A model generated the notes under the pieces. The model was not told the origin of the DNA. It saw only the letters and a list, made by a program, of their open reading frames with translations, and did not search any database. Shown piece by piece: positions 12,621 to 57,685 of a stretch of 64,000 bases of DNA; within the stretch, counting starts at the first letter, position 1; each line of letters begins with the position of its first letter. Made by a program: the position numbers and the translations under genes. This stretch comes from Epilithonimonas xixisoli (GTDB lineage Bacteria; Bacteroidota; Bacteroidia; Flavobacteriales; Weeksellaceae): assembly GCF_004365655.1 (NCBI RefSeq), contig NZ_SOEO01000003.1:124001-188000 (forward strand), read 5' to 3'.

Positions 12621-12736
12621 GCGTGAGGGATAGTAGTGGAAATCCTTTTTTGCTGGGAATTGGTGTGGGGAAAAGATTGTAGCGGATAGCCCGACCCGAG
12701 CGGTGGCATTAGGGTTGGCGAGGGGCACGCCCAAAT
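12621..12736 (+). repeat. Interspersed structured repeat, copy A
   Basis: Starts with GCGTG and ends with CACGC followed by CCAAAT, so the ends pair. It contains GTGGAAATCC, a T-rich segment, GATTGTAGCGGA and GACCCGAGCGGTGGC. Its last 20 bases are identical to copy B. It sits in the gap between the S9 peptidase and trhO, 40 bases before the trhO promoter. Confidence 0.85.
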
Positions 12737-12775
12737 ACTGATAACTGTCAACCGAAAACTTTCGACCAAATTTCT

Positions 12776-12783
12776 TATCTTTG
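12776..12783 (+). promoter_or_regulatory. -7 element of trhO
   Basis: TATCTTTG, the strongest form of the flavobacterial -7 box, 34 bases before the ATG. No good TTG is seen at the -33 distance. Confidence 0.65.
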
Positions 12784-12817
12784 CGCCATTATTTTTCTCA
12801 CTTAAAACGTTTATAGC

Positions 12818-14161
12818 ATGCAACTGTACAACACCTTGAGCGCAGAAGAAAGAGCCAGACTTATTGATGAAGCTGGTAAGGAACGCCTTACATTGTCTTT
12901 CTATGCGTATGCCAAAATTGAAAACCCAAAGAAATTTCGCGACGATTTATTTATAGCTTGGAACGCCCTGGATGCGCTCGGGCGAATCTATGTGGCGCAC
13001 GAAGGAATCAATGCTCAGATGAGTGTTCCTGCGGACCAATTTGAGGCTTTTCGTGAAACTTTGGAAGCTTATGATTTTATGAAAGGCATTCGTTTGAATG
13101 TGGCTGTAGAGCAGGATAATCACTCTTTTTTGAAGTTGACGATTAAAGTTCGAAACAAAATTGTTGCGGATGGTTTGAATGACGAGACTTTTGATGTGAC
13201 TAATAAAGGGATTCACTTGAAAGCTCAGGAATTCAATGATTTGCTGGCGAATCCGGATACGATTGTAGTGGATTTCAGGAATCATTACGAGAGTGAAGTG
13301 GGGCATTTTGAAGGTGCGATAACGCCGGATGTTGAGAATTTTCGAGAAAGTTTGCCGATTATCAATGAGCAATTACAGGATTTCAAAGAAGATAAAAACC
13401 TCTTAATGTATTGTACTGGCGGAATCCGGTGTGAAAAGGCAAGTGCGTATTTTAAACATCAGGGTTTCAAAAATGTTTACCAATTGGAAGGCGGAATTAT
13501 CGAATATGCGCGTCAGGTAAAGGAAGAAGGTGTTGAAAGTAAGTTTGTTGGGAAAAACTTTGTGTTTGACCACAGATTAGGCGAAAGAATTACGGACGAT
13601 ATTATAGCACAATGTCATCAATGCGGAAAACCTTGTGATAATCATACAAATTGTGCGAATGATGCTTGTCATTTGCTTTTTATTCAATGTGATGATTGTA
13701 AAGCTGTGATGGAAAATACCTGTTCTTCAGAATGTCTTGAAATCATTCATTTGCCCGTAGAAGAACAATTGGCGTTGAGAAAAGGACTTCAGGTTGGTAA
13801 TAAAGTATTTCGAAAAGGAAAGTCTGAAGCTTTGAAATTCAAAAATTCTGGCGATTTGACAGATAAACCTTTGGCTAAAGCAAATGATATTCGTCAGAAG
13901 ATAAAATTGAAGAAAAGCTTGATTGGAAAAGCGGAACATTATTATACGAGGTCAAAGATTGCTCAGTTTTTACTTTCAAATGAACTTTTTGTTGGTGATA
14001 AAGTTTTGATTTCTGGGCCTACGACTGGAGAGCAAGAGATTGTTATTAATGAAATGGTTGTTGAAGGAAATTCGGTTCAAACTGCGAAAGCTGAAGACCA
14101 AATTACTTTTGAGCTTCCATTCAGAGTGAGATTGTCTGACAAATTATATAAAATCTTATAA
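12818..14161 (+). CDS. trhO: tRNA uridine(34) hydroxylase TrhO (rhodanese) with C-terminal beta-barrel
   Basis: TrhO/YceA makes 5-hydroxyuridine at the tRNA wobble position. The 447 residues are arranged as an N-terminal acylphosphatase-like domain (about 1-120), a rhodanese domain with catalytic C199 in CTGGIRCEKA, and a cysteine-rich cluster (about 262-310, at least eight Cys) that may bind zinc. The last 80 residues (about 367-447) are not typical of E. coli TrhO: IGKAEHYY, VGDKVLISGPTTGEQE, and LPFRVRLSDKLYKI closely resemble the C-terminal translation-factor-like barrel of U32 peptidase/TrhP proteins, which make the same modification by another route. The resemblance is from memory of the families. 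Confidence 0.92.
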   Translation: MQLYNTLSAEERARLIDEAGKERLTLSFYAYAKIENPKKFRDDLFIAWNALDALGRIYVAHEGINAQMSVPADQFEAFRETLEAYDFMKGIRLNVAVEQDNHSFLKLTIKVRNKIVADGLNDETFDVTNKGIHLKAQEFNDLLANPDTIVVDFRNHYESEVGHFEGAITPDVENFRESLPIINEQLQDFKEDKNLLMYCTGGIRCEKASAYFKHQGFKNVYQLEGGIIEYARQVKEEGVESKFVGKNFVFDHRLGERITDDIIAQCHQCGKPCDNHTNCANDACHLLFIQCDDCKAVMENTCSSECLEIIHLPVEEQLALRKGLQVGNKVFRKGKSEALKFKNSGDLTDKPLAKANDIRQKIKLKKSLIGKAEHYYTRSKIAQFLLSNELFVGDKVLISGPTTGEQEIVINEMVVEGNSVQTAKAEDQITFELPFRVRLSDKLYKIL

Positions 14162-14169
14162 AAATAAAG

Positions 14170-14739
14170 ATGAATCTTAGTCTCACAAAAAGCGAACTTA
14201 GAACACTTTATAAAGCAAAAAGAATGGCCTTGTCTCAAGATGAGGTCAATTTTTTGTCTCAAAAACTGCTGAAAAACTTTATTTTACAATTTAATCCTAT
14301 TGAAAATCAAAAGGTTAATGTTTTTATGTCGATTGAAAAGTTTAAAGAAGTCAATACTCAAGTTTTCATTAATTATTTTTTTCAGAATAAAATCAGAGTT
14401 TTTGTGCCGAAGATCCAAGGTGAAAAAATCATTTCAGTAGAGATTTTTACCAATTCTGAATTTGAAATTAACAGATGGGGAATCAAAGAACCTATTTCAA
14501 ATATCGCTTCAAATGTAGAACTGGACTGTGTTTTGACGCCTTTGCTTTATTGTGATAAATTTGGAAATAGGGTTGGCTACGGAAAAGGTTTCTACGATCA
14601 GTTCTTTTCTGATTATCGAAATATTGAAAAAAAAGTAGGACTAAATTTCTTTCAACCCAATGAAATTATCACTGATGTTTATGAAAAAGATGTGCAATTA
14701 AATGCTTTGATCACGCCGGATCAAATTTTGAAATTTTAA
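14170..14739 (+). CDS. 5-formyltetrahydrofolate cyclo-ligase
   Basis: ATP-dependent conversion of 5-formyl-THF to 5,10-methenyl-THF in the cytoplasm (MTHFS/YgfA family). The 189 residues include the N-terminal KSELRTLYKAKR helix and the C-terminal nucleotide/folate motif GNRVGYGKGFYDQFF near residues 135-150, followed by VGLNFFQP. Length matches the family. It starts 8 bases after trhO and is probably cotranscribed with it. The common symbol in other genomes is fau or ygfA. Confidence 0.92.
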   Translation: MNLSLTKSELRTLYKAKRMALSQDEVNFLSQKLLKNFILQFNPIENQKVNVFMSIEKFKEVNTQVFINYFFQNKIRVFVPKIQGEKIISVEIFTNSEFEINRWGIKEPISNIASNVELDCVLTPLLYCDKFGNRVGYGKGFYDQFFSDYRNIEKKVGLNFFQPNEIITDVYEKDVQLNALITPDQILKF

Positions 14740-14830
14740 TTAAATATCTGATTTTCAATTATATTAATTTGTAAAATAATTTTACAGAGCTATTACAAGT
14801 TATTTTTTAATGATTTTTGTCAGACGGTGC

Positions 14831-14838
14831 TACTTTTG
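14831..14838 (+). promoter_or_regulatory. -7 element of mini-lipoprotein 1
   Basis: TACTTTTG in the context GGTGC-TACTTTTG-TC. The same box in a near-identical context (GGTG-TACTTTTG-TC) lies before the paralog at 17037. It implies a leader of about 60 bases. Confidence 0.6.
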
Positions 14839-14906
14839 TCTTGTAATTATTACACAATAATTAATGAAACAATTCAATAATAATAATTAATTTAAAATTT
14901 TAGAAC

Positions 14907-15143
14907 ATGAAAAAGTCATTATTTGTAGCTGCTTTCGCTGCTATCGCTCTTGTAGCTTGTAAAAAAACTGATAACGTAGAAGCTGCTGCTGTTGACTCTG
15001 TTGACGCTACTGCTGATTCTGCTGTTGCTGCTATCGATTCTACAGCTACTGCTACAGTTGATTCTGTAAAAGCTACTGCTGATTCTGCTAAAGCTGAAGT
15101 AAAAGCTGAAGAAAAAGCTGTAAAAGAAGAAATCAAAAAATAA
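14907..15143 (+). CDS. Small Ala/Asp/Ser-rich lipoprotein with heptad pattern (paralog 1)
   Basis: A 78-residue lipoprotein: signal peptide with lipobox LVAC and acylated C18, then a 60-residue mature chain of almost pure Ala, Asp, Ser, Thr, Val, Lys and Glu. Asp-Ser pairs recur at residues 30, 37, 44, 52 and 59, and hydrophobic residues at 29, 43, 51, 65 and 72, giving a heptad pattern with one 8-residue step, so it should form an amphipathic helix or coiled coil. It ends in two Lys. Size, helix and C-terminal Lys recall Braun lipoprotein, but no homology is claimed. A paralog lies at 17037. Function unknown. Confidence 0.85.
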   Translation: MKKSLFVAAFAAIALVACKKTDNVEAAAVDSVDATADSAVAAIDSTATATVDSVKATADSAKAEVKAEEKAVKEEIKK

Positions 15144-15166
15144 TTAAATCCCAGATTTAATTAAAA

Positions 15167-15192
15167 CAAAACCCGCTAATTAGCGGGTTTTG
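15167..15192. terminator. Bidirectional palindromic terminator
   Basis: A perfect 26-base palindrome with core ACCCGCTAATTAGCGGGT and flanking A/T runs, shared by mini-lipoprotein 1 and the converging lipoprotein gene; the latter's stop codon lies inside it. Confidence 0.9.
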
Positions 15193-15772
15193 TTGTTTTT
15201 GTAGTATCAGATTCTTTTTTGTAAAAGCTATCAAAATAAAACTTAAACTCTTTCTTGAATTTTACCGGAGATGCTTTCAACATATATTGTGCTTTACGCT
15301 GGACTGTTGTAAGATAAGTTCTCTTTTTGTCATAATATTCAACATCAAAGTTGGCAAAATCCAAAGTGTCTTTTTCCACTACAGATTTCGAGGTGCTAAG
15401 ATTGCTAACCTTTGCATAACGAACGTTCAGGCTGTCCATCTCTTTTAATAGTGGTTTCAGATTGTTGGAATCCTTTGTCAGAAAGTGCGCCTGCATCTGC
15501 GTATAAATCACGGAATCAATCTCTGTATCTTTGTTACCAGAGGTGTAGAGTGTAGAAAGATCCAACAAATCCTGAACTTTTTGAGACGTAATAAGATTAA
15601 TGGCTTGCAAACTGTCAAGTTTTGATTTTGAGTAAGTTACGTTATTGTTGGCATTCCGGATAGTCTCCAAAGAATTGTCATCGCCTTCATATTTTTTATT
15701 GCAGGAGTGCATTCCTACTATTATCATTGGAAAAGATAATAGCCACCAAATATTTTTATTTAATTTTTTCAT
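15176..15772 (-). CDS. Hypothetical lipoprotein
   Basis: A 198-residue protein with no family I recognise. The N-terminus has a hydrophobic segment ending in GMHSC, a plausible lipobox with Cys24. The rest is polar, helical in composition (many Lys, Leu, Ser, Asp), with a KSKLDSLQAINLITSQKVQDLLDLS segment broken here into its likely helix around residues 50-75. Its start overlaps the end of the upstream membrane protein gene by 17 bases, so the two are translated from one transcript. They sit between the two mini-lipoprotein paralogs. Confidence 0.75.
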   Translation of the reverse strand: MKKLNKNIWWLLSFPMIIVGMHSCNKKYEGDDNSLETIRNANNNVTYSKSKLDSLQAINLITSQKVQDLLDLSTLYTSGNKDTEIDSVIYTQMQAHFLTKDSNNLKPLLKEMDSLNVRYAKVSNLSTSKSVVEKDTLDFANFDVEYYDKKRTYLTTVQRKAQYMLKASPVKFKKEFKFYFDSFYKKESDTTKTTKPAN

Positions 15773-16868
15773 CTTCTGTTATTTTAAATTTAATCATTAC
15801 AATTTTTCCGTTTTCCATTTGAGAGTCAATCACTTCTAGGTTCTCAAGAGAAGTCGTCGGAAGCGTAACCAGCGAGATGTATTTTTGCTTGTCCAAAGTT
15901 TCGATGCCGTAGATGTCGCTATCTACCACTTGATAAATCAAAGCTTTGTCACTTATCAATCGATTCAGTTGGTCTGTTTTTTTCTTAAAGTCTTTAATCG
16001 ATTTTGAATAATAGAATAACTGAATAGCGTAGTCATTCGGTTTTAGCTCTATATTTTCGGATTCCGGTGCAGACTTAAGATCTCGCGTTACGGTGTCGGT
16101 TCTATAAAATGGTGATGAGATGACCATTTTCAAACTTTTACTTTTCGTTTCATACACAAACGGTGAATTTGGTTTTACTTTGAAAAGAATAGGCGATTCG
16201 TTTTGTCGAATGATTTTTACATCCAATTCCCCTTTGATAGATGAGTTTCTGTCTGCATCTGTAAAGGCGTAAGTGTATTTTTTATAGAATAAATTGTCAT
16301 AAAAAACAAGGATCAAAACCGTTGCAAAAAGAAAGACCGAAATGCCCAACCAAAGATATCTACGCAGAAAACTCGGCTTCGTATTATCAAGGTCAATGTT
16401 TTGATTGATTTCGTCAAAAGCCTGGTTGTCTATGGATATTTGAGTCTTTTCGCTTTCTTTCTCAGTCGTTTTTTCTAGATCTACAGCTGGTTCTGTAGGA
16501 GTGTTGTCAAGAGTTTGGTGTCTCTTTTCTTCTGTAGTCTGCGGTATTTCCGCTTTCTCTTCCAACTCGATTTCGATTGGATTTTTCTTTTTAAATTCTG
16601 ACCACGAGTTGTATCCTATGTAGATGGTTAGAATATTAAGCATATCAATTCTAGGAATTTTCTCCTGCGAATTGTTTTTGAAGTAGGTGTAAAACGTTTT
16701 TTCGCTGATGTTGCCTTTAGCCTTTTGCCGTAGATCTTCTTGGAAATAGATAATATCAATTCCTTTCCATTTAGAAATATCACTGTAAGACGGGGAATGA
16801 GTCTCAAGATATTTTTCCTGAACCGCTTTTTTTAAGGACTGAAAATGTAAAAATTCGATCTCGCTCAA
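15756..16868 (-). CDS. Single-pass membrane protein with conserved cytoplasmic N-terminal domain
   Basis: 370 residues: a cytoplasmic domain of about 95 residues with ISKWKGIDIIYFQEDL, ISEKTFYTYFKN and PRIDMLNILTIYIGYNSWSEF; a Glu/Thr-rich linker (about 97-165); one transmembrane helix (171-190); and a periplasmic C-terminal domain of about 180 residues rich in beta strands. I recall similar N-terminal domains in other flavobacterial proteins with varied C-termini, which suggests a signalling adapter, but I know no assigned function. The start is a TTG at 16866-16868; the next Met is far inside the domain. Translationally overlaps the lipoprotein gene downstream. Confidence 0.78.
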   Translation of the reverse strand: MSEIEFLHFQSLKKAVQEKYLETHSPSYSDISKWKGIDIIYFQEDLRQKAKGNISEKTFYTYFKNNSQEKIPRIDMLNILTIYIGYNSWSEFKKKNPIEIELEEKAEIPQTTEEKRHQTLDNTPTEPAVDLEKTTEKESEKTQISIDNQAFDEINQNIDLDNTKPSFLRRYLWLGISVFLFATVLILVFYDNLFYKKYTYAFTDADRNSSIKGELDVKIIRQNESPILFKVKPNSPFVYETKSKSLKMVISSPFYRTDTVTRDLKSAPESENIELKPNDYAIQLFYYSKSIKDFKKKTDQLNRLISDKALIYQVVDSDIYGIETLDKQKYISLVTLPTTSLENLEVIDSQMENGKIVMIKFKITEDEKIK

Positions 16869-16975
16869 AGTTGTGAAAATTCTTAATTTATTGATTTACA
16901 GTGATTCTTAATTGTAAATCTCGTTTTACAAATATATTACAATTAATATTCAAATGCAAGATTAATTTATCGGTG

Positions 16976-16983
16976 TACTTTTG
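16976..16983 (+). promoter_or_regulatory. -7 element of mini-lipoprotein 2
   Basis: TACTTTTG 54 bases before the ATG, in nearly the same sequence context as the box at 14831, indicating that promoter and gene were duplicated together. Confidence 0.6.
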
Positions 16984-17036
16984 TCCCGTTCAATTGAGAA
17001 CAAATCTATTAACTAACAATTTTAAATTTAATTATT

Positions 17037-17252
17037 ATGAAAAAGTCATTATTTGTAGCTGCTATCGCCGCTTTTGCTCTTGTAGCTTGTAAAAAAACTG
17101 AAACTGTAGATACTGCTTCTGCTGATTCTGCAAACGTTGATTCTGCTGTTGCTGTAGTTGATTCTGCTGCTACTGCTGGTGTTGATTCAGTTAAAGCTGC
17201 TGCTGATTCAGCTGTTGCAAAAGTTGATTCTGCTGCTACTGCTAAAAAATAA
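17037..17252 (+). CDS. Small Ala/Asp/Ser-rich lipoprotein with heptad pattern (paralog 2)
   Basis: A 71-residue paralog of the protein at 14907. The first 21 residues differ at only two positions (signal peptide, LVAC lipobox, C18, KKT). The mature chain again has Asp-Ser pairs at residues 30, 35, 42, 50, 57 and 64, with the same 7-8-7-7 spacing, and ends in two Lys. Codon use is strongly biased to GCT and GAT, typical of highly expressed genes, and the promoter matches that of paralog 1. Function unknown; an abundant envelope spacer is a guess. Confidence 0.85.
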   Translation: MKKSLFVAAIAAFALVACKKTETVDTASADSANVDSAVAVVDSAATAGVDSVKAAADSAVAKVDSAATAKK

Positions 17253-17275
17253 TCTTAACCTAGTTAAGAATTTGA

Positions 17276-17304
17276 AACCGTTTCTTTCGAGAAGCGGTTT
17301 TTTT
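17276..17304 (+). terminator. Terminator of mini-lipoprotein 2
   Basis: AACCGTTTCT pairs with AGAAGCGGTT around a TTCG tetraloop, followed by a T run on the plus strand. The stop of the converging methyltransferase gene lies in the run. Confidence 0.88.
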
Positions 17305-18073
17305 ATTTCTCTAATTTCTGTCTAAGGATTTCGTAGCAAGTAATGGCCGCCGCATTACTAAGATTCAAAGAGTCGATGGTTCCTGCCATTGGAATCAGAA
17401 CGTTTTCTCCTTTTTGTTTCCAGAAGTCACTCAAACCGGAGTGTTCTGTTCCGAATAAAATCGCCGATTTACTTTTCAAATCCTTTTCTTGAATATGTTT
17501 TGCATCGTCACTCATAAAAGTGGTGAAGATTTGATACTCATTGATTTTTAGGAATTCCAAAGTTTCTTCGTTCGAAGCTTGAAAGATATTCATTCCGAAA
17601 AGACAGCCAACACTCGAGCGAATCACATTTGGATTGTAGAAATCTGTTTTTGGGTCGGTGACAATTAGCGCATTGATTCCGAAAGCTTCGCAACTTCTGA
17701 GGATAGCGCCAAGATTTCCTGGTTTTTCTACACTTTCTAGAATAATAATTGCTGAATCTTTTTTCGGTTTGAAATCTTCTAAAGTTCTGGATTCCAATTT
17801 GTAAATCCCGATTATTCCTTCTGTCGTTCCGCGATACGCGATTTTTTCGTATAATTTTTCCGAAACGTAATGGATTTTTGTCGTTGGTAATTTTCCTTTG
17901 AAGATGTTTTCGCAGATGTAATATTCCTCTGGCAGATTTCCAAATTCCAAAGCGCGCTCGTTTTCCTGCTGACCTTCCACGATGAAAACGCCGGCTTTTC
18001 TTCTTTCCTGATTTTTGGTGAGAAGTCTGGTCAGTCTTTTGATTTTTTCGTTTTGAAGGCTTTCTATCAGCAT
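17303..18073 (-). CDS. TrmH/SpoU-family RNA 2'-O-methyltransferase
   Basis: SAM-dependent rRNA or tRNA ribose methyltransferase with the SPOUT knot fold, 256 residues from the start I chose (MLIESLQNEKIKRLTRLL at 18073). The open frame extends 23 more codons into an AT tandem repeat, but those residues are low-complexity and unlike the family. N-terminal substrate-binding domain (KNQERRKAGVFIVEG), then the SpoU motifs VEKPGNLGAILRSCEAFG, LFGTEHSGL and MAGTIDSLNLSNAAAI. The target nucleotide cannot be told from sequence. Confidence 0.9.
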   Translation of the reverse strand: MLIESLQNEKIKRLTRLLTKNQERRKAGVFIVEGQQENERALEFGNLPEEYYICENIFKGKLPTTKIHYVSEKLYEKIAYRGTTEGIIGIYKLESRTLEDFKPKKDSAIIILESVEKPGNLGAILRSCEAFGINALIVTDPKTDFYNPNVIRSSVGCLFGMNIFQASNEETLEFLKINEYQIFTTFMSDDAKHIQEKDLKSKSAILFGTEHSGLSDFWKQKGENVLIPMAGTIDSLNLSNAAAITCYEILRQKLEK

Positions 18074-18096
18074 TTTTGGAAATTTTTCACAAATGT

Positions 18097-18166
18097 ACAA
18101 TGTATAAAGTATAATGTAAAATGTATAATGTAAAAAGTACAATGTAGAAAGTATAATGTAAAATGT
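18097..18166. repeat. Degenerate AT tandem repeat
   Basis: Two 28-base units (18097-18124 and 18139-18166) differ at one base, are offset by 42 bases, and are built from smaller AATGTA/AAAGTA steps. It directly precedes the methyltransferase gene. Confidence 0.85.
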
Positions 18167-18203
18167 CCGTTGTTAAATGTTGTATGTTCAATCGGGGCGA
18201 AGC

Positions 18204-18312
18204 GCGTGAGGGATTGCAGTGGAAAGCCCGGAGCGAGGCAACGAGTGAGGACTTGCAACGGAAAGCCTGACCCGAGCGGTGGCCTTAGTGCTGGCGAGGG
18301 GCACGCCCAAAT
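18204..18312 (+). repeat. Interspersed structured repeat, copy B
   Basis: Starts GCGTG, ends CACGC then CCAAAT, with internal TTGCAGTGGAAAGCCC and TTGCAACGGAAAGCC. It shares 20 terminal bases and GACCCGAGCGGTGGC with copy A. It is GC-rich against the AT-rich surroundings and lies between the AT tandem repeat and lptB. Confidence 0.88.
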
Positions 18313-18399
18313 TTTTGTCATCATCGAAATATTTTCTTACAGTCTGTTAAAAAGTATGGAGATGAACTTCCAGCTTCCCTACTTCCAGCAAAAAATATA

Positions 18400-18407
18400 T
18401 ATCTTTG
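18400..18407 (+). promoter_or_regulatory. -7 element just before lptB
   Basis: TATCTTTG ends four bases before the lptB ATG. Since flavobacterial transcription starts about 5-8 bases past this box, the mRNA would be nearly leaderless. No TTG is seen at the -33 distance. Confidence 0.55.
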
Positions 18408-18411
18408 TTTT

Positions 18412-19140
18412 ATGATTTTACGAGGAGAAAATTTAATCAAAGAATACGGACCGAAAAAGGTAGTGAAAGGCGTATCATTGGAAGTACAGCAAGGCGAAAT
18501 CGTCGGACTTTTGGGACCAAATGGTGCGGGAAAAACAACTTCGTTTTATATGATTGTTGGATTGGTGAAACCGACTTTAGGAAACGTTTTCCTTGATAAT
18601 CAAAATATTACGAAGGACGCGATGTACAAACGTGCGCAAAATGGCATCGGCTATCTGGCGCAGGAAGCATCGGTTTTCAGGAAGTTGTCTGTGGAAGATA
18701 ATATTCTTGGTGTTTTGCAACTGACGAAGCTTTCCAAAAAAGAACAGCAGAAAAAATGTGACGAATTGATTGAGGAATTCCATCTGGAACACGTTCGTAA
18801 AAACCGTGGCGATTTGCTTTCCGGAGGTGAAAGACGTCGGACGGAAATCGCGCGTTGTTTGGCGACAAGTCCGAATTTTATCCTTTTGGATGAGCCGTTT
18901 GCGGGTGTTGACCCGATTGCGGTGGAGGATATTCAAAAAATCGTGAGGTCTCTGGTGGAGAAAAATATCGGGATATTGATTACCGACCACAACGTTCAGC
19001 AGACTTTGGCGATTACCAACAAAACCTATATTATGTTCGAAGGGAAAATCCTGAAAGAGGGAATTCCTGAGGATTTGGCGAATGACCCCGAAGTGAGACA
19101 GGCTTATCTTGGGGAGAATTTTAGGTTTGAGAAGATTTAG
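18412..19140 (+). CDS. lptB: LPS export ABC transporter ATP-binding protein LptB
   Basis: Cytoplasmic ATPase that, with LptFG, extracts LPS from the inner membrane for transport to the outer membrane. The 242 residues include Walker [10 protein letters not shown] (near 38), Q-loop region [14 protein letters not shown], signature [16 protein letters not shown], Walker [14 protein letters not shown] and the switch His in ITDHNVQQT, plus the Lpt-specific [13 protein letters not shown] at the C-terminus. Length matches the family. The start [13 protein letters not shown] is the usual one. Confidence 0.96.
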
Positions 19141-19149
19141 GTTTTATAT

Positions 19150-42144: not shown

Positions 42145-42279
42145 TTTGGGCAGCTTTTCCGCCTTCCGCTCCCAAACCTAACGAAGTGGTTCGACGAAGT
42201 CAATCTTTTTTGCAGACGATTTCAGTTTAATTAGAACTTGAGTAGAAGCAAAAAAGGATTTCCGCTCAAGTCGGGCTGC
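42145..42279 (-). repeat. Interspersed structured repeat, copy D, with inserted module
   Basis: On the minus strand it starts GCAGC and ends GCTGC then CCAAA. It has GCGGAAATCCTTTTTTGC near the start, pairing with GCAAAAAAGATT later. Compared with copy C it has about 27 extra bases after GATT (GACTTCGTCGAACCACTTCG and on), and a longer hairpin loop. Confidence 0.85.
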
Positions 42280-42320
42280 ATATTCGGTATATAACAACAT
42301 TAGTCCTAAAAACCAAATTT

Positions 42321-42400
42321 TGTCATTCCGTAGGAAACCTAACGAAGTGGTTCGATGCAGTCAATCTAAACTTCGCTGTCGAGATTCCTACGGAATGACA
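42321..42400. repeat. 80-base inverted-repeat element
   Basis: Perfect 15-base arms TGTCATTCCGTAGGA (42321-42335) and its complement (42386-42400). The interior contains ACCTAACGAAGTGGTTCGA, nearly the same as the module inserted in copy D 140 bases away. Confidence 0.88.
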
Positions 42401-42434
42401 AATAGGTCTTGAAATTGTCTCTCTTCTTTGATGA

Positions 42435-42510
42435 GTTTTACGTCTTTGCGAATCTTAAAATATTTTCAGCAATTATAAACAAATCTTTGCGGGCTTTGCG
42501 TTAAACTTTA
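42435..42510. repeat. CTTTGCG-type direct repeat
   Basis: Three CTTTGCG words (near 42443, 42485 and 42494) separated by AT-rich sequence, reading on the minus strand as AACGCAAAGCCCGCAAAGAT. It resembles dispersed repeats I recall from related genomes; in this window it is the only copy. Confidence 0.5.
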
Positions 42511-44225: not shown

Positions 44226-44315
44226 GCAGCCCGGCTTGAGTGGAAATCCTTTTTTGTGGCTGGAAAAGCGGTGGCAAAAAGATTGGGAACGGAAGACGGA
44301 AACAGCTGCCCAAAT
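44226..44315 (+). repeat. Interspersed structured repeat, copy C
   Basis: Starts GCAGC, ends GCTGC then CCAAAT. Contains GAGTGGAAATCCTTTTTTG, CAAAAAGATT and GGGAACGGAAGACGG. At 90 bases it is nearly the shortest copy and shows the core without inserted modules. Confidence 0.88.
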
Positions 44316-49694: not shown

Positions 49695-51776
49695 TTACCA
49701 GATTTTGATTCTCTTTTCCGGAGCTACATATAGTTTGTCTCCGGGTTTAACATCAAAGGCTTTTTGGAAAGAATCCATATTCACCAATGGTCCAAAACTT
49801 CTGTAATAACCCGGCGAATGCGGATCTGTTTTTACTTGATTGGTCATATATTTATCTGTGGATTTGGTTCTCCAAACCGTTGCCCAACTCATAAAGAATC
49901 TTTGATCTTGAGTCAAATCGCTTATTTTTCCTGGATTTCCGTGGTCTTTCAAATACATTTGTAGCGCTGTGTAAGCGACATTAATTCCGCCTAAATCTCC
50001 AATGTTTTCTCCGCTGGTAAATTTTCCATTTACGAAACTTCCTGTCACTGGTTCATATTTATCATATTGCGATGCCAATTGTCCAACTTTTTCGTCGAAG
50101 TTTTTTCTGTCACTTTCTGTCCACCAATTGTTTAAGTTTCCGTCTCCGTCAAATCTAGAACCGCTGTCATCAAATCCGTGAGAAATCTCGTGACCGATAA
50201 CGCCACCAATTCCTCCAAAGTTAACTGCAGGATCTGCATTGAAATTGAAAAACGGCGGTTGCAAGATGGCCGCTGGGAAAACAATTTCATTATTAGATGA
50301 GCTGTAATAAGCGTTCACCGTTTGTGGTGACATTCCCCATTCCGTTTTATCTACTGGTTTTCCTATTTTGTCAAGGTTTTTTGCGTAACTCCACTCAGAG
50401 ATTTTCTCGAGATTGTTGTAATAAGTTCCATTGTTGGAAGCTAATTGTAAATTTAATTTAGAATAATCTTTCCATTTGTCCGGATAGGCGATCTTCACTT
50501 TGAATTTTGATAACTTTTCCAAAGCTTTTTCTCTCGTTACCGGAGACATCCATTCCAGATTTTCTATATGAACTTTGAAAGCTTTCTTGATGTAATCTAC
50601 ATAAGTTTCCATCTTTTGTTTCGCTTCTGGTGAGAAATTTTTCTCTACATAAAGTTTTCCAAAAGCTTCACCAAGAACACCATTTACCAAACCAAGTCCG
50701 CGTTTTTCCATAGAACGTTGCTCTTGCTGGCCTTGCAGATATTTGGAATAAAAATCAAAACGAATGTTATCCAGATTCTGATCAAGATTTCCCGCATTGC
50801 TGTTCAAAAGGTCATATTTCATATATTCTTTAATCAGACCGATGTTTTTATCCGTCATCCAAGAATCCATATTTTGGTAATATTTTAATTCCCCAATGAT
50901 AACTTTGTCAGTATTGGCACCAACTGTTTTAAGATAGTCAGGAAGATTAACATTTTTTACCAATGGTTTTAGTTCCGCAACAGTTTTAGGATTGTATCGC
51001 AAATTCGCATCACGACCTTGTTCCAAAGTCAAAAGATCCTGAGCTAGTTTTTTCTCAAAATCAACAATTTGCTGAGCTGTCGCATCTGGAGTTTTGCTTC
51101 CAAGAACTGTTTGTAGCTTGGCAACGTAATTTTTATATTCGGCTAATGTTTTGGTGTTGGCTTCGTTGGCTTTTTGATAATAATCTTTACCCAAGCCTAA
51201 ACTTGGTCCGCCAAGATAAACAGCGTTCATTACAGAGTTTTTCATATCTGCGCCAACTCTCCATCCGTAAAAAGGATTGTCGCCGGAAGGAGTAGCTTCG
51301 ATAAGATAGTTCTGCAAATCTTTTACATTTTTAATCGCATCGATTTTTGTCAGTTGAGATTTGATTGGAGTAATCCCTTCTGCGTTTCTCTTGTTCCAAT
51401 CGATGAAAGTGCCATATAGCGCTTGGATTTTTTCGCCTTCGGAATTAGAATCGAATTTTTCTGAAAGTACTTTATTCAAAATATCCAATGACGCAACATC
51501 CACATCTTCCCTCAAAGCATTGAATGAGCCCCAACTTGGTTTGTCCGAAGGAATTACCGCGGTTTTCATCCAGCCACCGTTTACATAATTATAGAAATCA
51601 TCTTGAGGTCTTACACTTGTGTCCATATAAGAAAGGTTGAGTCCTTCTTCTTTAATGGTTTTCGGAACTTCTGATTCTGTTTTTGGTTGTTCTGCTGTAG
51701 TTTTTTGTGATGTGGAGCAAGATTCTAAGTAGAATGTTGCAGCAATCGTCATCACGTAAATACTGATCTTTTTCAT
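49695..51776 (-). CDS. M13 family metallopeptidase (neprilysin/PepO type)
   Basis: 693-residue zinc oligopeptidase. The N-terminus has a lipoprotein-type signal (FYLESCSTSQK, Cys20), so it is anchored in the envelope. The zinc site is HEISH in GGVIGHEISHGFDDSGS, the third ligand Glu is in GENIGDLGG, and the substrate-binding NAYYSSSNNEIVFPAAIL precedes them. The C-terminal SPGYYRSFGPLVNMDSFQKAF is typical. It would shorten peptides in the periplasm, feeding the POT importers. Confidence 0.94.
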   Translation of the reverse strand: MKKISIYVMTIAATFYLESCSTSQKTTAEQPKTESEVPKTIKEEGLNLSYMDTSVRPQDDFYNYVNGGWMKTAVIPSDKPSWGSFNALREDVDVASLDILNKVLSEKFDSNSEGEKIQALYGTFIDWNKRNAEGITPIKSQLTKIDAIKNVKDLQNYLIEATPSGDNPFYGWRVGADMKNSVMNAVYLGGPSLGLGKDYYQKANEANTKTLAEYKNYVAKLQTVLGSKTPDATAQQIVDFEKKLAQDLLTLEQGRDANLRYNPKTVAELKPLVKNVNLPDYLKTVGANTDKVIIGELKYYQNMDSWMTDKNIGLIKEYMKYDLLNSNAGNLDQNLDNIRFDFYSKYLQGQQEQRSMEKRGLGLVNGVLGEAFGKLYVEKNFSPEAKQKMETYVDYIKKAFKVHIENLEWMSPVTREKALEKLSKFKVKIAYPDKWKDYSKLNLQLASNNGTYYNNLEKISEWSYAKNLDKIGKPVDKTEWGMSPQTVNAYYSSSNNEIVFPAAILQPPFFNFNADPAVNFGGIGGVIGHEISHGFDDSGSRFDGDGNLNNWWTESDRKNFDEKVGQLASQYDKYEPVTGSFVNGKFTSGENIGDLGGINVAYTALQMYLKDHGNPGKISDLTQDQRFFMSWATVWRTKSTDKYMTNQVKTDPHSPGYYRSFGPLVNMDSFQKAFDVKPGDKLYVAPEKRIKIW

Positions 51777-51840
51777 TGAGATTTATTTTAATACTTTCAA
51801 AAGTATGGAATTTTAATTTTTTAGAGGTCTTCTGAAATGA

Positions 51841-51867
51841 AAAATCCCACTCGATATGAATGGGATA
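51841..51867 (-). terminator. Terminator of the toxin-antitoxin operon
   Basis: ATCCCA pairs with TGGGAT around 11 bases, followed by T residues on the minus strand, 16 bases past the toxin stop. Confidence 0.65.
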
Positions 51868-51882
51868 TACGAAATACTGTAT

Positions 51883-52176
51883 TTATAGTTCAAGATTATC
51901 TGGGTTTCTTCTGTTGTCCCAAAAGGCTAAAATTTCGATTTTATCATTTTGAAATCTGAAGAATAATGAATAATATTTAAGGATTTTAATTTTATATATT
52001 TCATCAAAGGCAGTCTTTATTCCAATTTTAGGATTTTCAGATAGCTCTAATTGTTTTTTCTTGACTTCAAGTCTTAATTTTTTCGAAAAAGTTTCGGATG
52101 AATTATGAATATTCCAATATTTTAAAGTTTCTGCTAAATCTAGCAAAGCTTTTTTCGTCCATTTTATTTGAAACAT
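51883..52176 (-). CDS. Type II toxin, RelE/ParE family
   Basis: 97 residues with the ParE/RelE layout: FQIKWTKKALLDLAETLKYW, a helix pair, PKIGIKTAFDEIYKIKILKYYSLFFRFQNDKIEILAFWDNRRNP. The C-terminal strand with WDNRRNP is the usual active or target-contact region. It overlaps the antitoxin gene by 13 bases, typical of these modules. Whether it blocks gyrase or cuts mRNA cannot be told. Confidence 0.88.
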   Translation of the reverse strand: MFQIKWTKKALLDLAETLKYWNIHNSSETFSKKLRLEVKKKQLELSENPKIGIKTAFDEIYKIKILKYYSLFFRFQNDKIEILAFWDNRRNPDNLEL

Positions 52177-52379
52177 TTATCAAGAATTTTTTCAGCTTCA
52201 TCCTCAGTGAAGAATTCACCTTGATTGGCTTGTTCAATGCCTTCTTGCAATTGTTTTCTCTGCCAATCTGTTAACTTTTCTTTTTTTGAAACCTCAAATT
52301 TTATATTCAATTCCTTCAGAAGCGCTTCAATTAATTTTAATTGATTTTCTGACTCGTTATGTAAAGTGATGGTGCTCAT
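52164..52379 (-). CDS. Antitoxin of the RelE/ParE-type module
   Basis: 71 residues. The N-terminal strand-helix (STITLHNESENQLKLIEALLKELNI) would bind DNA or dimerise, and the C-terminal half (QQLEGIEQANQGEF-like acidic region, EDEAEKILDKCFK) would wrap the toxin. Gene order antitoxin-then-toxin with overlap supports the call. It lies between the asnS terminator and the toxin. Confidence 0.82.
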   Translation of the reverse strand: MSTITLHNESENQLKLIEALLKELNIKFEVSKKEKLTDWQRKQLQEGIEQANQGEFFTEDEAEKILDKCFK

Positions 52380-52407
52380 TTTTAAAATTTAAGTAAAGTT
52401 AATAAAA

Positions 52408-52435
52408 AATTCCTTCAATTAAAACTGAAGGAATT
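52408..52435 (-). terminator. Terminator of asnS
   Basis: AATTCCTTCA pairs with TGAAGGAATT around an eight-base loop, followed by T residues on the minus strand, between asnS and the antitoxin gene. Confidence 0.88.
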
Positions 52436-52459
52436 TGCTTTTTTATATTTAATTAATGC

Positions 52460-53908
52460 TTAGAATTCTGCATTTTTAGGTGTTCTCGGGAAAGGAATCA
52501 CATCTCTGATGTTCGTCATTCCAGTTACGAAAAGTACCAATCTTTCCAATCCTAAACCAAATCCAGCGTGCGGAACAGAACCGAATTTTCTAGTGTCAAG
52601 ATACCACCAAAGCTCGTGTTCGTCAACACCGAAGTCTTTCATTTTCTCTAGAAGAACATCGTGTCTCGCTTCTCTCTCAGAACCACCGATGATTTCGCCA
52701 ATTCCTGGGAAAAGAACGTCCATTGCGGCAACTGTTTTTCCGTCGTCATTCAGTTTCATATAGAAGGCCTTGATTTCTTTCGGATAATCGAAGAGGACAA
52801 CTGGTGTTTCGAAGTGTTTCTCTACCAAATATCTCTCGTGCTCAGACTGCAAATCGGTTCCCCATTTCTCAATCGGATATTGGAATTTGCCTTTTTTATT
52901 TTCTTTTGAGTTTAATAAAATCTCAATCGCTTCCGTATAAGAAACTCTCTTGAAACGCTTCGCAACCACGTTAGTGAGTTTTTCAATCAAGCCTTCTTTA
53001 GCTCTGTCTTTTTCAGGTTTTCCTTTTTGCTCTTCTTCGAAACGCTTGTCAAGGAACTCCAAATCATCTTTGCAATTGTCCAAAACGTACTGAATCACAT
53101 ATTTCAAGAAATCCTCTGCAAGGTCAATATTATTTTCAAGATTGTTGAACGCAACTTCTGGCTCAATCATCCAAAACTCAGCAAGGTGACGCGTCGTATT
53201 AGAATTTTCTGCACGGAAAGTCGGTCCGAAAGTGTAAATTCTTCCCAATCCCATCGCTGCAGTTTCACCTTCCAATTGTCCTGAAACTGTCAAGTTGGTT
53301 TTCTTTCCGAAAAAGTCTTGAGAAAAATCGATGTCTCCTTCTTCGGTTTTAGGCATATTATTAAGGTCAAAATTTGTAACGCCAAACATTTCTCCAGCGC
53401 CTTCTGCATCAGCTCCAGTGATAACCGGCGTGTTGATGTAGAAAAATTGATTTTGATTGAAGAACGAGTGAATCGCAAAACTCACCGAGTGACGGATTCT
53501 GAAAACCGCTCCAAAAACATTAGTTCTGAATCTCAAATGTGCCTGCTCACGCAATTTCTCCAAACTGTGTTTCTTTGGCTGAAGAATCGTGGATTGCAAT
53601 TCCTCAAAGAAATTGTCGCCCAGAATCGTGATTTTTTTTGCAATGATTTCCACGGTTTGTCCAGCGCCTTGGCTTTCCACCACTTCACCTACAATTTTCA
53701 AAGACGAAGCCGTATTGATTTTCTTGATGGTTTCCTCATCAAAACTTTCAAAATCAACCACGATTTGCAAATTATTAATCGTAGAACCATCATTTAGCGC
53801 GATAAAACGATTGGAACGGAAAGCCCGAACCCAACCTTGAACGGTAATGTCGTGATGTAATACTTTTTTGTAATCTGCTAATAGGTCTTTAATTGTCTGT
53901 CGTTTCAT
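52460..53908 (-). CDS. asnS: Asparaginyl-tRNA synthetase
   Basis: 482-residue class II synthetase charging tRNA-Asn. OB-fold anticodon domain (about 15-115, [20 protein letters not shown]), motif 2 [22 protein letters not shown], and motif 3 [16 protein letters not shown] chose ATG 53908 ([10 protein letters not shown]); two codons earlier is a TTG. It follows a TAAATTTG box at 53928-53935. Confidence 0.96.
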
Positions 53909-53927
53909 TATCAAAAATTAGTGAGTG

Positions 53928-53935
53928 CAAATTTA
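53928..53935 (-). promoter_or_regulatory. -7 element of asnS
   Basis: Minus-strand TAAATTTG, 19 bases before the ATG. Confidence 0.5.
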
Positions 53936-54024
53936 CGAAAAAACGTTGTAAATAGATATTAGATATTGGACTTTAGATGTTAGATTGAAAATTAATGATT
54001 AAAATTCTCAATTATTTGAAATTT

Positions 54025-54624
54025 TTAATTCAACAAAACAGATTTTTTCAACATTTTTCCGTTTCGGATTTTCCAGGCGTGATAGGAACTTGGAACATCA
54101 TATTGCCATTTCGGTAAAATTAAAATAATCAAAATAACATCCAAATGCGAGATAAAACCCAAAATCACGCAGAGATAAAATGCCCAGCCAGCCTCAGAAA
54201 ATCCAATGAGAGAAGTGAAAGCGATGAGTAAACTCAATCCCCAAAGTTTGGAAAGCCAAGCGTGCGTGCAAGTTTCCTTCCCGAATTTCCAAAGACTGAC
54301 GATGTAGCATAAAGCTTCCATTACGAAAATCAAAGCGATATTTTTCCAATGTTCTTGGATGATTTCGGGATTCAGAAAATAAGTGGCGAAACCGATTGAT
54401 AACCAAAAAACCAAATCGGTTTGGCTGTCCAATCGTCTTAGTTTTTCTGATGAAACACCGACTTTTCGAGCGATGATGCCATCAAGAATATCGGTGAACA
54501 ATCCGAAGTACATTAATATAAAAATTAAATTCCGAGAATTTTCAATTTCAAAATAAGCCAGCAGAAATATGATTGGCGCAAGTAGAAATCTTGTCGCGAT
54601 GAGAATGTATGGTAATTTTTTCAT
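54025..54624 (-). CDS. CDP-alcohol phosphatidyltransferase family protein
   Basis: 199-residue membrane protein with about six helices. The catalytic motif of the family, DGxxARx8Gx3Dx3D, reads DGIIAR-(8)-L-RRL-D-SQT-D (near residues 49-71): all Asp and Arg are present but the central Gly is Leu. The substrate would be a CDP-linked lipid. The family includes phosphatidylglycerophosphate, phosphatidylserine and inositol-phosphate synthases; I cannot choose. Confidence 0.85.
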   Translation of the reverse strand: MKKLPYILIATRFLLAPIIFLLAYFEIENSRNLIFILMYFGLFTDILDGIIARKVGVSSEKLRRLDSQTDLVFWLSIGFATYFLNPEIIQEHWKNIALIFVMEALCYIVSLWKFGKETCTHAWLSKLWGLSLLIAFTSLIGFSEAGWAFYLCVILGFISHLDVILIILILPKWQYDVPSSYHAWKIRNGKMLKKSVLLN

Positions 54625-54641
54625 AATTAATGTTTTAAATA

Positions 54642-55209
54642 TTATTGAATACGGTTGAATTTCTCTGCGTAATTAATCGTTCTGCCGGCCCACATAAGAA
54701 AAAGGAAAGAACCGTTGTTGTCGTTGTAGCTGTGAATCACGAGATTGTTATCTGCCGTCAAACCGATTCTGGATTGGGAAACTTCGCATCCACCAAGAAA
54801 GTAAGGGATTCCGGTGCATTTTGTCGTTCGGTTTTTCAAGGTCAAGATTCCGTTTTTCAAAGTGGCGTTCAGCTTGTAAGAATGTTTTACAGAATCATTT
54901 TTGAATAATGTCAATTCCAATTCGTAGAGTTTGCTGTCCATTTTTTTTAGATTTAATTTCCAAAAAATCGCAATCTTCCAAATCTTGATTTTTCAAATCC
55001 AACATTCTGGCAATTCCGATGGATTCTACAGGTTTTGATAATAATGAACTTGAGTTGTCGTAACCTTTGAATTTATACTTTCCTTCGATTGATTTCCCGT
55101 TGTTTTCGGAAATATTTGTCAAATCGTTTTTGATTAATTTTCTGTCAAAGCTGACGCAGGAAGTGAGCGTTGTCAGAAGAATGGCGAGTCCTAATAATTG
55201 CGTTTTCAT
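54642..55209 (-). pseudogene. Lipoprotein gene with a one-base frameshift at an A8 tract
   Basis: Two overlapping frames read as one 188-residue protein if one A is removed from the eight-A run at 54942-54949. Frame one starts at 55209 with a signal peptide ending LTSC (Cys18) and runs to ...DFLEIKSKK; frame two continues MDSKLYELELTLFKN to FNRIQ at 54642. Read as written, frame one ends after 15 further unrelated residues. The tract could be a real mutation, a phase-variable or slippage site, or a sequencing error. The intact product would be a secreted lipoprotein of a family I do not recognise. Confidence 0.75.
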
Positions 55210-55288
55210 AATTATATCTTTTAATGATGATGTAAAATTATATTCGAAACTCCACCTTCTCAATGCGGAAAAGAATTAATATTTTTTC

Positions 55289-55296
55289 TAAATTTG
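55289..55296 (+). promoter_or_regulatory. -7 element of the regulator gene at 55312
   Basis: TAAATTTG 15 bases before the ATG. Confidence 0.5.
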
Positions 55297-55311
55297 TGAA
55301 AATCGCAAAAG

Positions 55312-56247
55312 ATGTATCAGGAACTTTTATTGAAAGAAATCAGAAACAAAATCGGAGACAAATCTCTGAATGATGAATTAGCGAATGTCCTCAACATTAG
55401 TTATGATGCTGCGCACAGAAGAACATCGATGAAGTCTAAATTTTCTCTAGAAGAAAGTTTACAGCTTGCGAAGTTTTATAATATTTCTTTAGATAGATTT
55501 CTTGAAAATAGCGACAATCTTTTGGTAAAGAAGACGAAAGCCGTTAGTAAAACGGAAGATTTGCATTCGTTTTTTGATAATACTTTGGATATTTTAAGTT
55601 CAATTCAATTTTCAGAAGATTCTGTGATTTATTATTCGGCGAAGGATATTCCGTTTTTTTATACGGTTTCGGATACGCTTTTGTCAAGATTCAAAATTTA
55701 TGTTTGGATGAATCTTCTGAATTCTAAACAGGTTTTTATCCCGTTTCAGGATTTTCAGCCACCACAATTTGATTCAAAAACAAAAATTCTGAGAGAGATT
55801 TACGAAGAACAAAATGTAATAGAATTATGGAATGATATGACGATTTCCAGCATTCTTTTGCAGATTTCGTTCTATTTTGAAATTGGACTTCTCAAAAAAG
55901 AAGATGCTGTAAACATACTTTCAGAACTGGATGATTTGATTCGTTACATCGAAAATAAAACGGAAACTAATCCTCGTTTTCAAATTTATCAAAACGAATT
56001 GGTTCATCTTTCCAATGATATTTTTGTTAATAATGGTCAACAATCTACCTTAGCAATTCCGTGCAATATGTTTGGTTATCTGTTAATGAATGATTCCAAA
56101 ACTTGCAAAGAAACGATGAACTATTTTGAACATCAAATCAAAAATTGCAAATCTCTGAACACGGCCGGAAATCGTGATAGGAAACTGTTTTTCAACAGGA
56201 TGTATCAGAAAATAGAAATACAGAGAAAATCTATAACAGATTTTTAA
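55312..56247 (+). CDS. Probable HTH transcriptional regulator
   Basis: 311 residues. The first 60 residues form a helix-turn-helix-like region (NDELANVLNISYDAAHRRTSMKSKFSLEESLQLAKFYNISLDRF) similar to XRE or BetR-type DNA binding in Bacteroidetes. The rest is helical (about 80-310) with no catalytic motif I know and may sense a ligand. It is transcribed away from the frameshifted lipoprotein gene and may have controlled it. Confidence 0.72.
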   Translation: MYQELLLKEIRNKIGDKSLNDELANVLNISYDAAHRRTSMKSKFSLEESLQLAKFYNISLDRFLENSDNLLVKKTKAVSKTEDLHSFFDNTLDILSSIQFSEDSVIYYSAKDIPFFYTVSDTLLSRFKIYVWMNLLNSKQVFIPFQDFQPPQFDSKTKILREIYEEQNVIELWNDMTISSILLQISFYFEIGLLKKEDAVNILSELDDLIRYIENKTETNPRFQIYQNELVHLSNDIFVNNGQQSTLAIPCNMFGYLLMNDSKTCKETMNYFEHQIKNCKSLNTAGNRDRKLFFNRMYQKIEIQRKSITDF

Positions 56248-56250
56248 AAA

Positions 56251-56793
56251 TTACTCATCCTTTTTAGAAGGAACCAAGAAAACATCCATCAAGCCTTCTG
56301 GCAAAAACATTTTGATGAATTTCTCCTCACGGTTCACTTGTAGAATCCAATCTCTGATTAGTGGAATGATGATTTCTTTTCCGGCAAGATTAAGGATGAA
56401 ATAATTTTGAGCAGTCTGGTCATTGATGGAAACGATATTTCCACAAGATTTCCCATCCTCTTCACGGATTTCAAAACCAACAACCTCGTGATAATAGAAT
56501 TTTTTCCCCGTCAACGGCGGAAGCGTAGAAAGCGGAAGATAAACACCTTTTCCAATCGATTGATTCACCAATGCTTCGGAAGAATTTTTGAAAGTAATGA
56601 TTTTAGTATCGCCTCTGGACCAAGATTGTTTTTCCACAAAGAAAGGAACCAACAAACCATTGATATCTAAAAAAATCGATGTCAGTTTATCATACATTTC
56701 AGGTTGGTCTGTATCCAGTTTTAGGATCACGTTGCCTTGTAGGCCGTGTGTTCTGGTAATGGTTCCTAAAAAATAGCAGTCTTCTTTTTTCAT
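56251..56793 (-). CDS. rimM: 16S rRNA processing protein RimM
   Basis: 180-residue ribosome assembly factor that binds S19 in the 30S head. N-terminal barrel DCYFLGTITRTHGLQGNVILKLDTD; C-terminal PRC-barrel FYYHEVVGFEIREEDGKSCGNI and NREEKFIKMFLPEGLMDVF. It follows rpsP in the usual order. A hairpin lies between the two genes. Confidence 0.95.
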   Translation of the reverse strand: MKKEDCYFLGTITRTHGLQGNVILKLDTDQPEMYDKLTSIFLDINGLLVPFFVEKQSWSRGDTKIITFKNSSEALVNQSIGKGVYLPLSTLPPLTGKKFYYHEVVGFEIREEDGKSCGNIVSINDQTAQNYFILNLAGKEIIIPLIRDWILQVNREEKFIKMFLPEGLMDVFLVPSKKDE

Positions 56794-56822
56794 TATTTCC
56801 GGTGGTAAATTTTATTAAACAA

Positions 56823-56849
56823 CAAAGACACGAGATTATCGTGTCTTTG
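56823..56849 (-). promoter_or_regulatory. Hairpin between rpsP and rimM
   Basis: Eleven-base arms CAAAGACACGA and TCGTGTCTTTG around a five-base loop, without a proper T run after it on the minus strand. It may be a partial terminator or an mRNA-stabilising stem that sets the ratio of S16 to RimM. Confidence 0.7.
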
Positions 56850-56871
56850 AGATTGTATCTTTTGTAAAGAA

Positions 56872-57444
56872 TTAAGCCTGAGTTTCTTCAGTCCCTTCTG
56901 CTTCAGCAGTTGGCTCTTCAGTCGCAACTTCTTCTGTTGCAACTTCTTCAGCAGGCGCGTTAGCAGCCTCTTCAGCAGCTTTTGCATCAGCTTCAGCTTT
57001 CGCAGCAGCATCAATTCTTGCTTGGTTTACTTTAGCCTCAGCTTCCAAAGCCGCTTTTTTAGCGTCAGATTTTGCTGTAGATAAACCTTCTACTTTACCT
57101 TGTACTTTAGCATCTTTTGCATCAACCCAAGCAGCGAATCTCTTCTCAGCTTCAGCCTCGTCAAAAGCACCTTTAGCAACACCACCTTGAAGGTGTTTTT
57201 TGTACAAAGCACCTTTGTAAGAAAGGATAGCTCTTGCAGTGTCAGTTGGCTGAGCACCGTTGTTCAACCATTTAACAGCAGAATCAACGTTCAAGTCGAT
57301 AGTTGCTGGGTTTGTAATTGGGTTGTAAGTTCCTAGTTTCTCGATGAATCTACCATCTCTTCTAGCTCTTGCATCTGCAACTACGATGTGGAAGAAAGGT
57401 TTCCCTTTAGACCCGTGTCTTTGTAATCTGATTTTTACTGACAT
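56872..57444 (-). CDS. rpsP: 30S ribosomal protein S16 with long Ala/Glu-rich tail
   Basis: 190 residues. The conserved S16 core is the first 80 or so ([59 protein letters not shown]). The remaining 110 residues are an Ala/Glu/Lys-rich, low-complexity, helical then acidic tail ([33 protein letters not shown]). Long S16 tails are common in Bacteroidetes. It has a perfect flavobacterial promoter and is followed by rimM. Confidence 0.96.
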
Positions 57445-57457
57445 ATGTTTAAAAATT

Positions 57458-57476
57458 TTGGGAACACGTCCCGGTT
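57458..57476 (-). promoter_or_regulatory. Small hairpin in the rpsP leader
   Basis: GGGA-CGTGT-TCCC lies in the middle of the 40-base leader. Ribosomal-protein leaders often bind their own product; I cannot tell if this one does. Confidence 0.35.
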
Positions 57477-57490
57477 AAATATTAAGTGTG

Positions 57491-57518
57491 CAAAGATAAT
57501 AAAATTTTTTGGTTACAA
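57491..57518 (-). promoter_or_regulatory. Promoter of rpsP-rimM
   Basis: Minus-strand TTG (57516-57518), 17 bases, TATCTTTG (57491-57498): a perfect match to the flavobacterial consensus, fitting a highly expressed gene. Confidence 0.85.
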
Positions 57519-57596
57519 AAATTTTTGTCAGAAGTTGGAAGTCAGATGTCAGAAGTTTTTCAAACCTCGAATTTTGAACAAATAAGACGTTGAATC

Positions 57597-57685
57597 TTTG
57601 GAGCCGGGAACCTGCTTTCCGTTGCAATTCCTCGCGCCTTGCTTTTCCCATCGCTTACTGTGGGATTTCCACTGCAATCAGGGCT
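57597..57685 (-). repeat. Interspersed structured repeat, copy E
   Basis: On the minus strand it starts AGCC, has TGATTGCAGTGGAAATCCC and AATTGCAACGGAAAGC, and ends GGCT then CCAAAG. The terminal stem AGCC/GGCT differs from those of copies A-D but pairs within this copy. Confidence 0.8.

Follow-up and report, generated by a model that had tools for sequence, protein, structure and literature searches.

Five intergenic repeats of Epilithonimonas xixisoli belong to an extended, dispersed and mostly site-stable Flavo-1 family

Five similar sequences lie within a 64,000-nucleotide stretch of the Epilithonimonas xixisoli genome (contig NZ_SOEO01000003.1, positions 124,001 to 188,000 of the forward strand), the whole of which is termed the window, and raise the question of whether such repeats are a conserved RNA, a mobile element resembling the repetitive extragenic palindromic (REP) sequences or a chance recurrence of GC-rich words. 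A preliminary description of the window had proposed an RNA, a REP-like element or both, and had wondered about a relationship to the Flavo-1 motif of Rfam. Together with Rfam Flavo-1 (RF01705), all five copies belong to a single superfamily, divided into three subclasses that differ in their closing structure. The known motif is extended by two subclasses, is larger than catalogued and constitutes a dispersed, mostly site-stable family with a putative role.

The sequence of each copy was re-read, and all five were confirmed at the coordinates first assigned to them. Copy A (12621..12736, plus strand) is a class 3 element with a three-way junction, identified from its sequence, Rfam, two of the models introduced below (R1 and R3) and orthologues. 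Copy B (18204..18312, plus strand) is also of class 3, on the basis of sequence, a weak Rfam match, R3 and orthologues. Class 2 comprises copy D (42145..42279, minus strand), which has an extra piece of ~28 bases in its 3′ half and was identified from sequence, R2, R1 and its sharp ends, and copy C (44226..44315, plus strand), identified from sequence, a sub-cut-off Rfam match, R2, R1 and orthologues. Copy E (57597..57685, minus strand; 3′ end TTCCCGGCTCC) is of class 1, the Rfam Flavo-1 type, as indicated by sequence, Rfam, R1 and orthologues. The shared words were as previously described, apart from small deviations in D (GCGGAAATCC in place of GTGG), A (GCGGATAGC) and C (ACGGAAGAC), and all five copies had a terminal CCAAA. 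The closing stems were likewise present, GCGTG/CACGC in A and B, GCAGC/GCTGC in C and D and AGCC/GGCT in E; in copy A, GCGTG at 12621-12625 pairs with CACGC at 12726-12730. All of the copies are intergenic according to the open reading frame map, the short frames of 81 to 93 amino acids that overlap B and C being probably spurious. The ends of D are sharp, as at least 12 listed genus matches elsewhere start at query position 645/646 and end at 780/781, corresponding to window boundaries of 42144/42145 to 42279/42280.

A cmscan search with Rfam, in which RF01705 has a cut-off of 42 bits, placed A (52.5 bits) and E (42.8 bits) above the cut-off and C (31.3 bits) and B (27.3 bits, E 0.15) below it, while no RF01705 match was obtained for D. 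Models R1 (class 1), R2 (class 2) and R3 (class 3) were built here from subclass alignments, and in the window they gave matches at the five places already described and at no other (E<=1). Most of the model matches in the window were to copies that are themselves model rows, namely, R1 to E (67.9 bits), R2 to C (111.1 bits) and D (66.5 bits) and R3 to A (124.6 bits) and B (106.9 bits). The fair matches are those of R1, which contains E alone of the five copies, to C (48.8 bits, E 7e-11), A (42.0 bits, E 8e-9) and D (31.3 bits, E 1.4e-5). Copy B was not matched by R1 in the window; its ties are to A through R3, whose rows include both copies, and to Flavo-1 through the weak Rfam match. The suggested identity with Flavo-1 was, therefore, upheld by the Rfam cut-off for A and E, with B, C and D being relatives through model cross-matches.

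The elements are ~90 to 135 nucleotides in length. Common to the three classes are two short stems of 2 to 4 bp between 3 × 3 loops, which are mostly of the G-N-A/G-G-A type, and, beyond these inner stems, an apical stem and loop that occurs in short and long forms and is an exchangeable module. The layout of class 1 (E) is TAGCCCCGAT..GCGGGATTAAGCTCC and that of class 2 (C and D) is GCAGCCCG..CGGANAAGCTGCCCAAAT. In class 3 (A and B), GCGTGAGGGAT..ATAGCCC is followed by a second helix, CCCGAGC..GGCGAGGG, and then by CACGCCCAAA, and RNAalifold produced a three-way junction. The lengths of the two halves of class 1 elements were matched, with 23/18 in 30 of 58 entries, 24/19 in the other 28 and no mixed combinations; as these entries were distinct by half or by loop, several have identical halves.

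Covariation was detected in each of the subclass alignments, with scores of 0.420 for class 1 (31 sequences; shuffle mean, 0.176), 0.100 for class 2 (15 sequences; shuffle mean, 0.048) and 0.404 for class 3 (10 sequences; shuffle mean, 0.180). None of 500 shuffles per alignment, a control that ignores the relatedness of the copies, reached the observed score. The proposal of a conserved structured family was thus borne out by covariation and by the Rfam and model matches. The paired changes between A/B and C/D, which had been taken as a mark of selection on structure, represent a difference between subclasses, but the closing stem does covary in class 2 and in class 3 when each is taken separately.

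The family is present in high numbers. In the genome of E. xixisoli, RF01705 gave at least 114 matches at E<=1, of which at least 112 were at E<=0.01, and R2 gave at least 114 at E<=0.01; the union of these 112 and 114 matches covers at least 160 places. R3 gave at least 13 matches at E<=1e-10. All 22 of the genus relatives searched carried RF01705 matches, from 46 to at least 66 each, and among 59 genomes, E. xixisoli included, RF01705 was found in 38 (E<=0.001), R2 in 32 (E<=1e-6) and R3 in 34 (E<=1e-10). A density of 33 copies per 400 kb in genome G003 extrapolates to ~300 per genome.

Sites occupied by the family were mostly conserved between species. Genomes G003 and G015 align across 296 kb at 92.5% identity, and the stretches compared contained 66 copies after hand-merging of R1 to R3 matches and removal of six weak ones (E 0.092 to 0.73). 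The 33 G003 copies included one that could not be placed; for 28 of the remaining 32, a G015 copy of identical strand and class was present at the lifted position, one of these shared sites being found solely by lifting in the opposite direction. Four G003 copies had no G015 counterpart. Three of these were read, and no clean empty site was seen at any of them, the whole intergenic stretch being different or containing a reading frame. Other palindromic repeats in these stretches were polymorphic. For the window copies, orthologues were present in six of six close species at sites A and E and in four of six at site B. Matches to R2 (E<=0.1) were obtained at 6 of 16 genus loci for site D, one of which (in E. 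tenax) was truncated, and at 6 of 16 for site C, with a further copy seen by eye in G001; neither R1 nor R2 matched C or D at 16 loci of other genera. In 27 comparisons with window copies, all at sites selected for the presence of the element, elements were 92.2% identical (10% gaps), the upstream flanks 80.8% (32% gaps) and the downstream flanks 88.3% (17% gaps).

Several sites had changed in sequence while remaining occupied. The copies at G003 123432 and G015 103981 have different loops and three changed base pairs, all of which are paired, and those at G003 127588 and G015 108102 have different inner stems and different apical modules, with pairing retained in both. At site D, GCATC/GATGC replaces GCAGC/GCTGC in PS02293, and the G022 copy differs in its inner stem and its apical module and has the A/G mismatch reversed. 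At site E, the apical module of G021 is different. These in-place changes would be due to copying between family members.

Some additional features were observed at these sites. The ~28-base piece of D (window 42174-42201; GACTTCGTCGAACCACTTCGTTAGGTTT on the minus strand) occurs at the same point in some class 2 copies of other genomes and is absent from most. Beside and overlapping D is a palindromic stretch at 42201-42505 (TGTCATTCCGTAGGAA..); as many partial genus matches were obtained at query 702-1006, this stretch represents another dispersed repeat. In three species, the orthologue of B (L223 7127-7269, L221 977-1085 and L204 14797-14902) contains a ~31-base insert near the 5′ end, which is absent from G000 and G003. 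Elsewhere in the window, a weak Rfam match to Ysr141 at 89-305 (27.9 bits against a cut-off of 196, E 0.0011) is probably due to chance.

The explanation that we prefer, and to which we assign about an even chance, is that Flavo-1 is an old dispersed intergenic repeat that folds as a single strand, is at present passed on at its existing sites and is kept uniform by exchange between copies. Under this explanation, the elements would have spread in an ancestor and would now be largely immobile, gene conversion between copies and selection on the folded single strand would keep the stems paired, and a protein would recognise, or would once have recognised, the folded strand in the form of RNA or of single-stranded DNA. 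The occurrence of the G/A loops and the junction on one strand only favours a folded single strand of one or other type. A bolder version, which we offer only tentatively and regard as much less probable, is that of a genus-wide network of ~200 to 300 long-lived chromosomal sites (extrapolated from copy density) whose folded strands would be bound by a host protein and which would evolve in concert, entire stem-and-loop variants being passed between sites that do not themselves move.

A number of points weigh against the inherited-repeat explanation. No binding protein was among the results of this analysis, and exchange between copies was read from patterns rather than observed. The element is missing from sites C and D in the majority of the 16 loci of the genus that were scanned, the greater similarity of elements than of flanks was obtained solely from occupied sites and, in the comparison of G003 with G015, many sites have adjacent flanks whose similarity roughly equals that of the element. 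The covariation scores are subject to the relatedness that the shuffles ignore. Finally, the window copies, on both strands, folded no clearly better than dinucleotide shuffles with either RNA parameters (z-scores of −1.63 to +1.22) or DNA parameters (−0.65 to +1.30). Stability was, therefore, rejected as support for the structure, which rests instead on covariation.

Of the rival explanations, the one that survives best is that the family consists of genes for small RNAs or of RNA elements within transcripts, in line with its filing in Rfam, with the fold being selected as RNA. We consider this a possible explanation, about half as probable as the inherited repeat. The covariation in all three subclass alignments and the restriction of the three-way junction and G/A loops to one strand are consistent with an RNA, and the RNA minimum-energy fold of copy C is the consensus fold while DNA parameters gave weaker folds. 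The gene contexts, however, were mixed. Contexts were assigned with a codon-usage gene caller, and the E. xixisoli copies were those at the top of the Rfam list (L001-L030 and L084-L143). In this genome, 89 of 90 loci comprised 45 tandem antisense, 19 tandem sense, 14 divergent and 11 convergent arrangements; for G003 and G015 together, 64 of 66 loci comprised 11, 16, 24 and 13, respectively. An intergenic background (n = 232) contained 127 tandem, 78 divergent and 27 convergent arrangements. The excess of antisense over sense copies in E. xixisoli (45:19; binomial P = 0.0016; 46:17 in an earlier count) was not a general rule, as it was not seen in G003 and G015 (11:16). The mixture of positions and strands relative to genes led to rejection of a role as a terminator, leader or cis-regulatory RNA. 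The Flavo-1 hits of Flavobacterium psychrophilum have similarly been reported, in the available text of PMC9723704, to be sense or antisense indistinctly and, in many cases, outside transcribed regions. A bias in replication strand was also considered and rejected, as strand counts per contig bin and GC skew exhibited no clear replichore pattern.

A scarcity of wobble pairs also argues against selection as RNA. Pairs were counted with patterns that were open at chosen pair positions and exact at invariant ones (56, 65 and 16 distinct sequences), which left degenerate copies out of the counts. The 629 pair cells, a sum that leaves out the class 1 column p1 (which is invariant), the class 2 mismatch and, in class 3, the inner stem of two pairs, contained 621 Watson-Crick pairs, 5 G-T pairs and 3 others. 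The class 2 mismatch was A.G in 47 of 65 sequences, G.A in 17 and G.G in 1, and one pair of the inner class 3 stem was U-G in 2 of 10 aligned sequences. Among standard pairs of the alignments, G-U accounted for 14 of ~1128 in all (class 1, 2 of ~520; class 2, 1 of 330; class 3, 11 of 278, most of them within the apical helix), as compared to 55 of 696 in the stems of 33 distinct tRNAs from the same genome. The rarity is weaker in class 3 taken alone and, as the copies are not independent, the contrast with tRNA is suggestive only. A low number of G-T pairs may result from pairing as DNA, from copying between copies or from stems that are too short for wobble.

This scarcity, together with the several paired changes that occur together at one site, would also fit functionless relics whose stems are kept paired not by selection but by mutation, for example through template switching or through sequence exchange involving arms or copies. 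Template switching has been reported to make and maintain hairpins (PMC8794818, in the text available). We regard such an origin of the pairing as unlikely. Repair templated by the opposite arm would be expected to erase both the G/A mismatches conserved in the loops and the switch from A.G to G.A at one mismatch.

Present mobility as a REP-like element, mobilised by a REP-associated tyrosine transposase (RAYT, of the Y1 type), would account for the high copy number; Y1 genes (PF01797) are present in the E. xixisoli genome and, among the 59 genomes, a Y1 match is present in most that contain Flavo-1. This part of the preliminary description was not supported, and we consider it improbable. Sites, strand and class were mostly conserved, precise insertion was not seen at any site read, and G005 and G017 contain many Flavo-1 copies without a Y1 match at E<=0.001. 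A search of 44 Y1 loci with R1 and R3 (R2 left out) detected one clear copy, located on one side only and ~190 bases past the end of the Y1 gene (L328), and one weak class 3 match (L072); no RAYT gene with two inverted Flavo-1 copies was found at these loci. On inspection by eye, palindromes of other sequence flank at least 15 of the 17 genes that a motif search detected among 20 loci. The two RAYT-like genes of E. xixisoli (L033 1252-1803 and L034 1462-2067) are each flanked by palindromes of their own, of the GAGC/GCTCG and CCCCTTCAGAGTTT types, and not by Flavo-1.

The unremarkable folding of single sequences is all that would fit random matches of GC-rich words, a refutation that the preliminary description had allowed for and that has a negligible probability given two Rfam matches above the cut-off, the detection of C, A and D by a model that includes none of the three, at least 160 genomic copies and conserved sites.

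The placement of Flavo-1 in a larger family of three classes, mostly fixed in position and with no link to those RAYT genes that were inspected, makes it testable whether RNA or DNA is the selected molecule. The family is also a reminder that covariation by itself is no proof of an RNA gene.

Comparison with known systems begins with Flavo-1 itself, which is tabulated as an RNA motif by Weinberg et al. 2010 (PMC2864571) and appears as an abundant Rfam sRNA family with no function listed in the portion of PMC9029176 that was available. The inner stems, G/A loops and apical stem of RF01705 are shared with the window copies, and the closing structures of classes 2 and 3 extend past the 76-position Rfam model. 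Copy number, site conservation and in-place exchange are absent from the accessible part of the published description (PMC2864571), and nothing on Flavo-1 was found in those titles and abstracts that were retrieved on flavobacterial repeats and RAYT genes.

Subclass 2.6 TnpA_REP genes of Bacteroidetes are described in the available text of PMC6006769 as being flanked by atypical structures, which resemble Flavo-1 in belonging to this phylum, in being dispersed and in lacking a GT[AG]G tag. The protein encoded at L033 carries the YIHQNP motif listed for this subclass (PMC6006769). On both sides of this gene are GAGC-type palindromes, which are unrelated to Flavo-1. In Flavo-1, no GT(A/G)G tag was present at the foot of the palindrome; a GTGG or GCGG word lies inside, 10 to 16 bases from the start, and is variable (GT, GC or AC).

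With REP sequences and bacterial interspersed mosaic elements (BIME), as presented in the available parts of PMC2817692 and PMC3733652, Flavo-1 shares more than 100 intergenic, palindromic and structured copies and alternative complementary residues in the stems. Flavo-1 differs in being several times longer, in having conserved sites and in the absence of pairs flanking the RAYT-like genes examined. Pairing of GT is often seen in the stems of GTAG-tagged REP sequences, according to the accessible text of PMC3733652, and is rare in Flavo-1. The CGTC-tagged repeats of the same source are reported to be without a dedicated transposase and to occur in Bacteroidetes among other phyla, in both of which respects Flavo-1 is alike. 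Their stems, however, are given there as 8 to 9 bp with loops of 4 to 5 bases, whereas Flavo-1 forms a long hairpin or a three-way junction.

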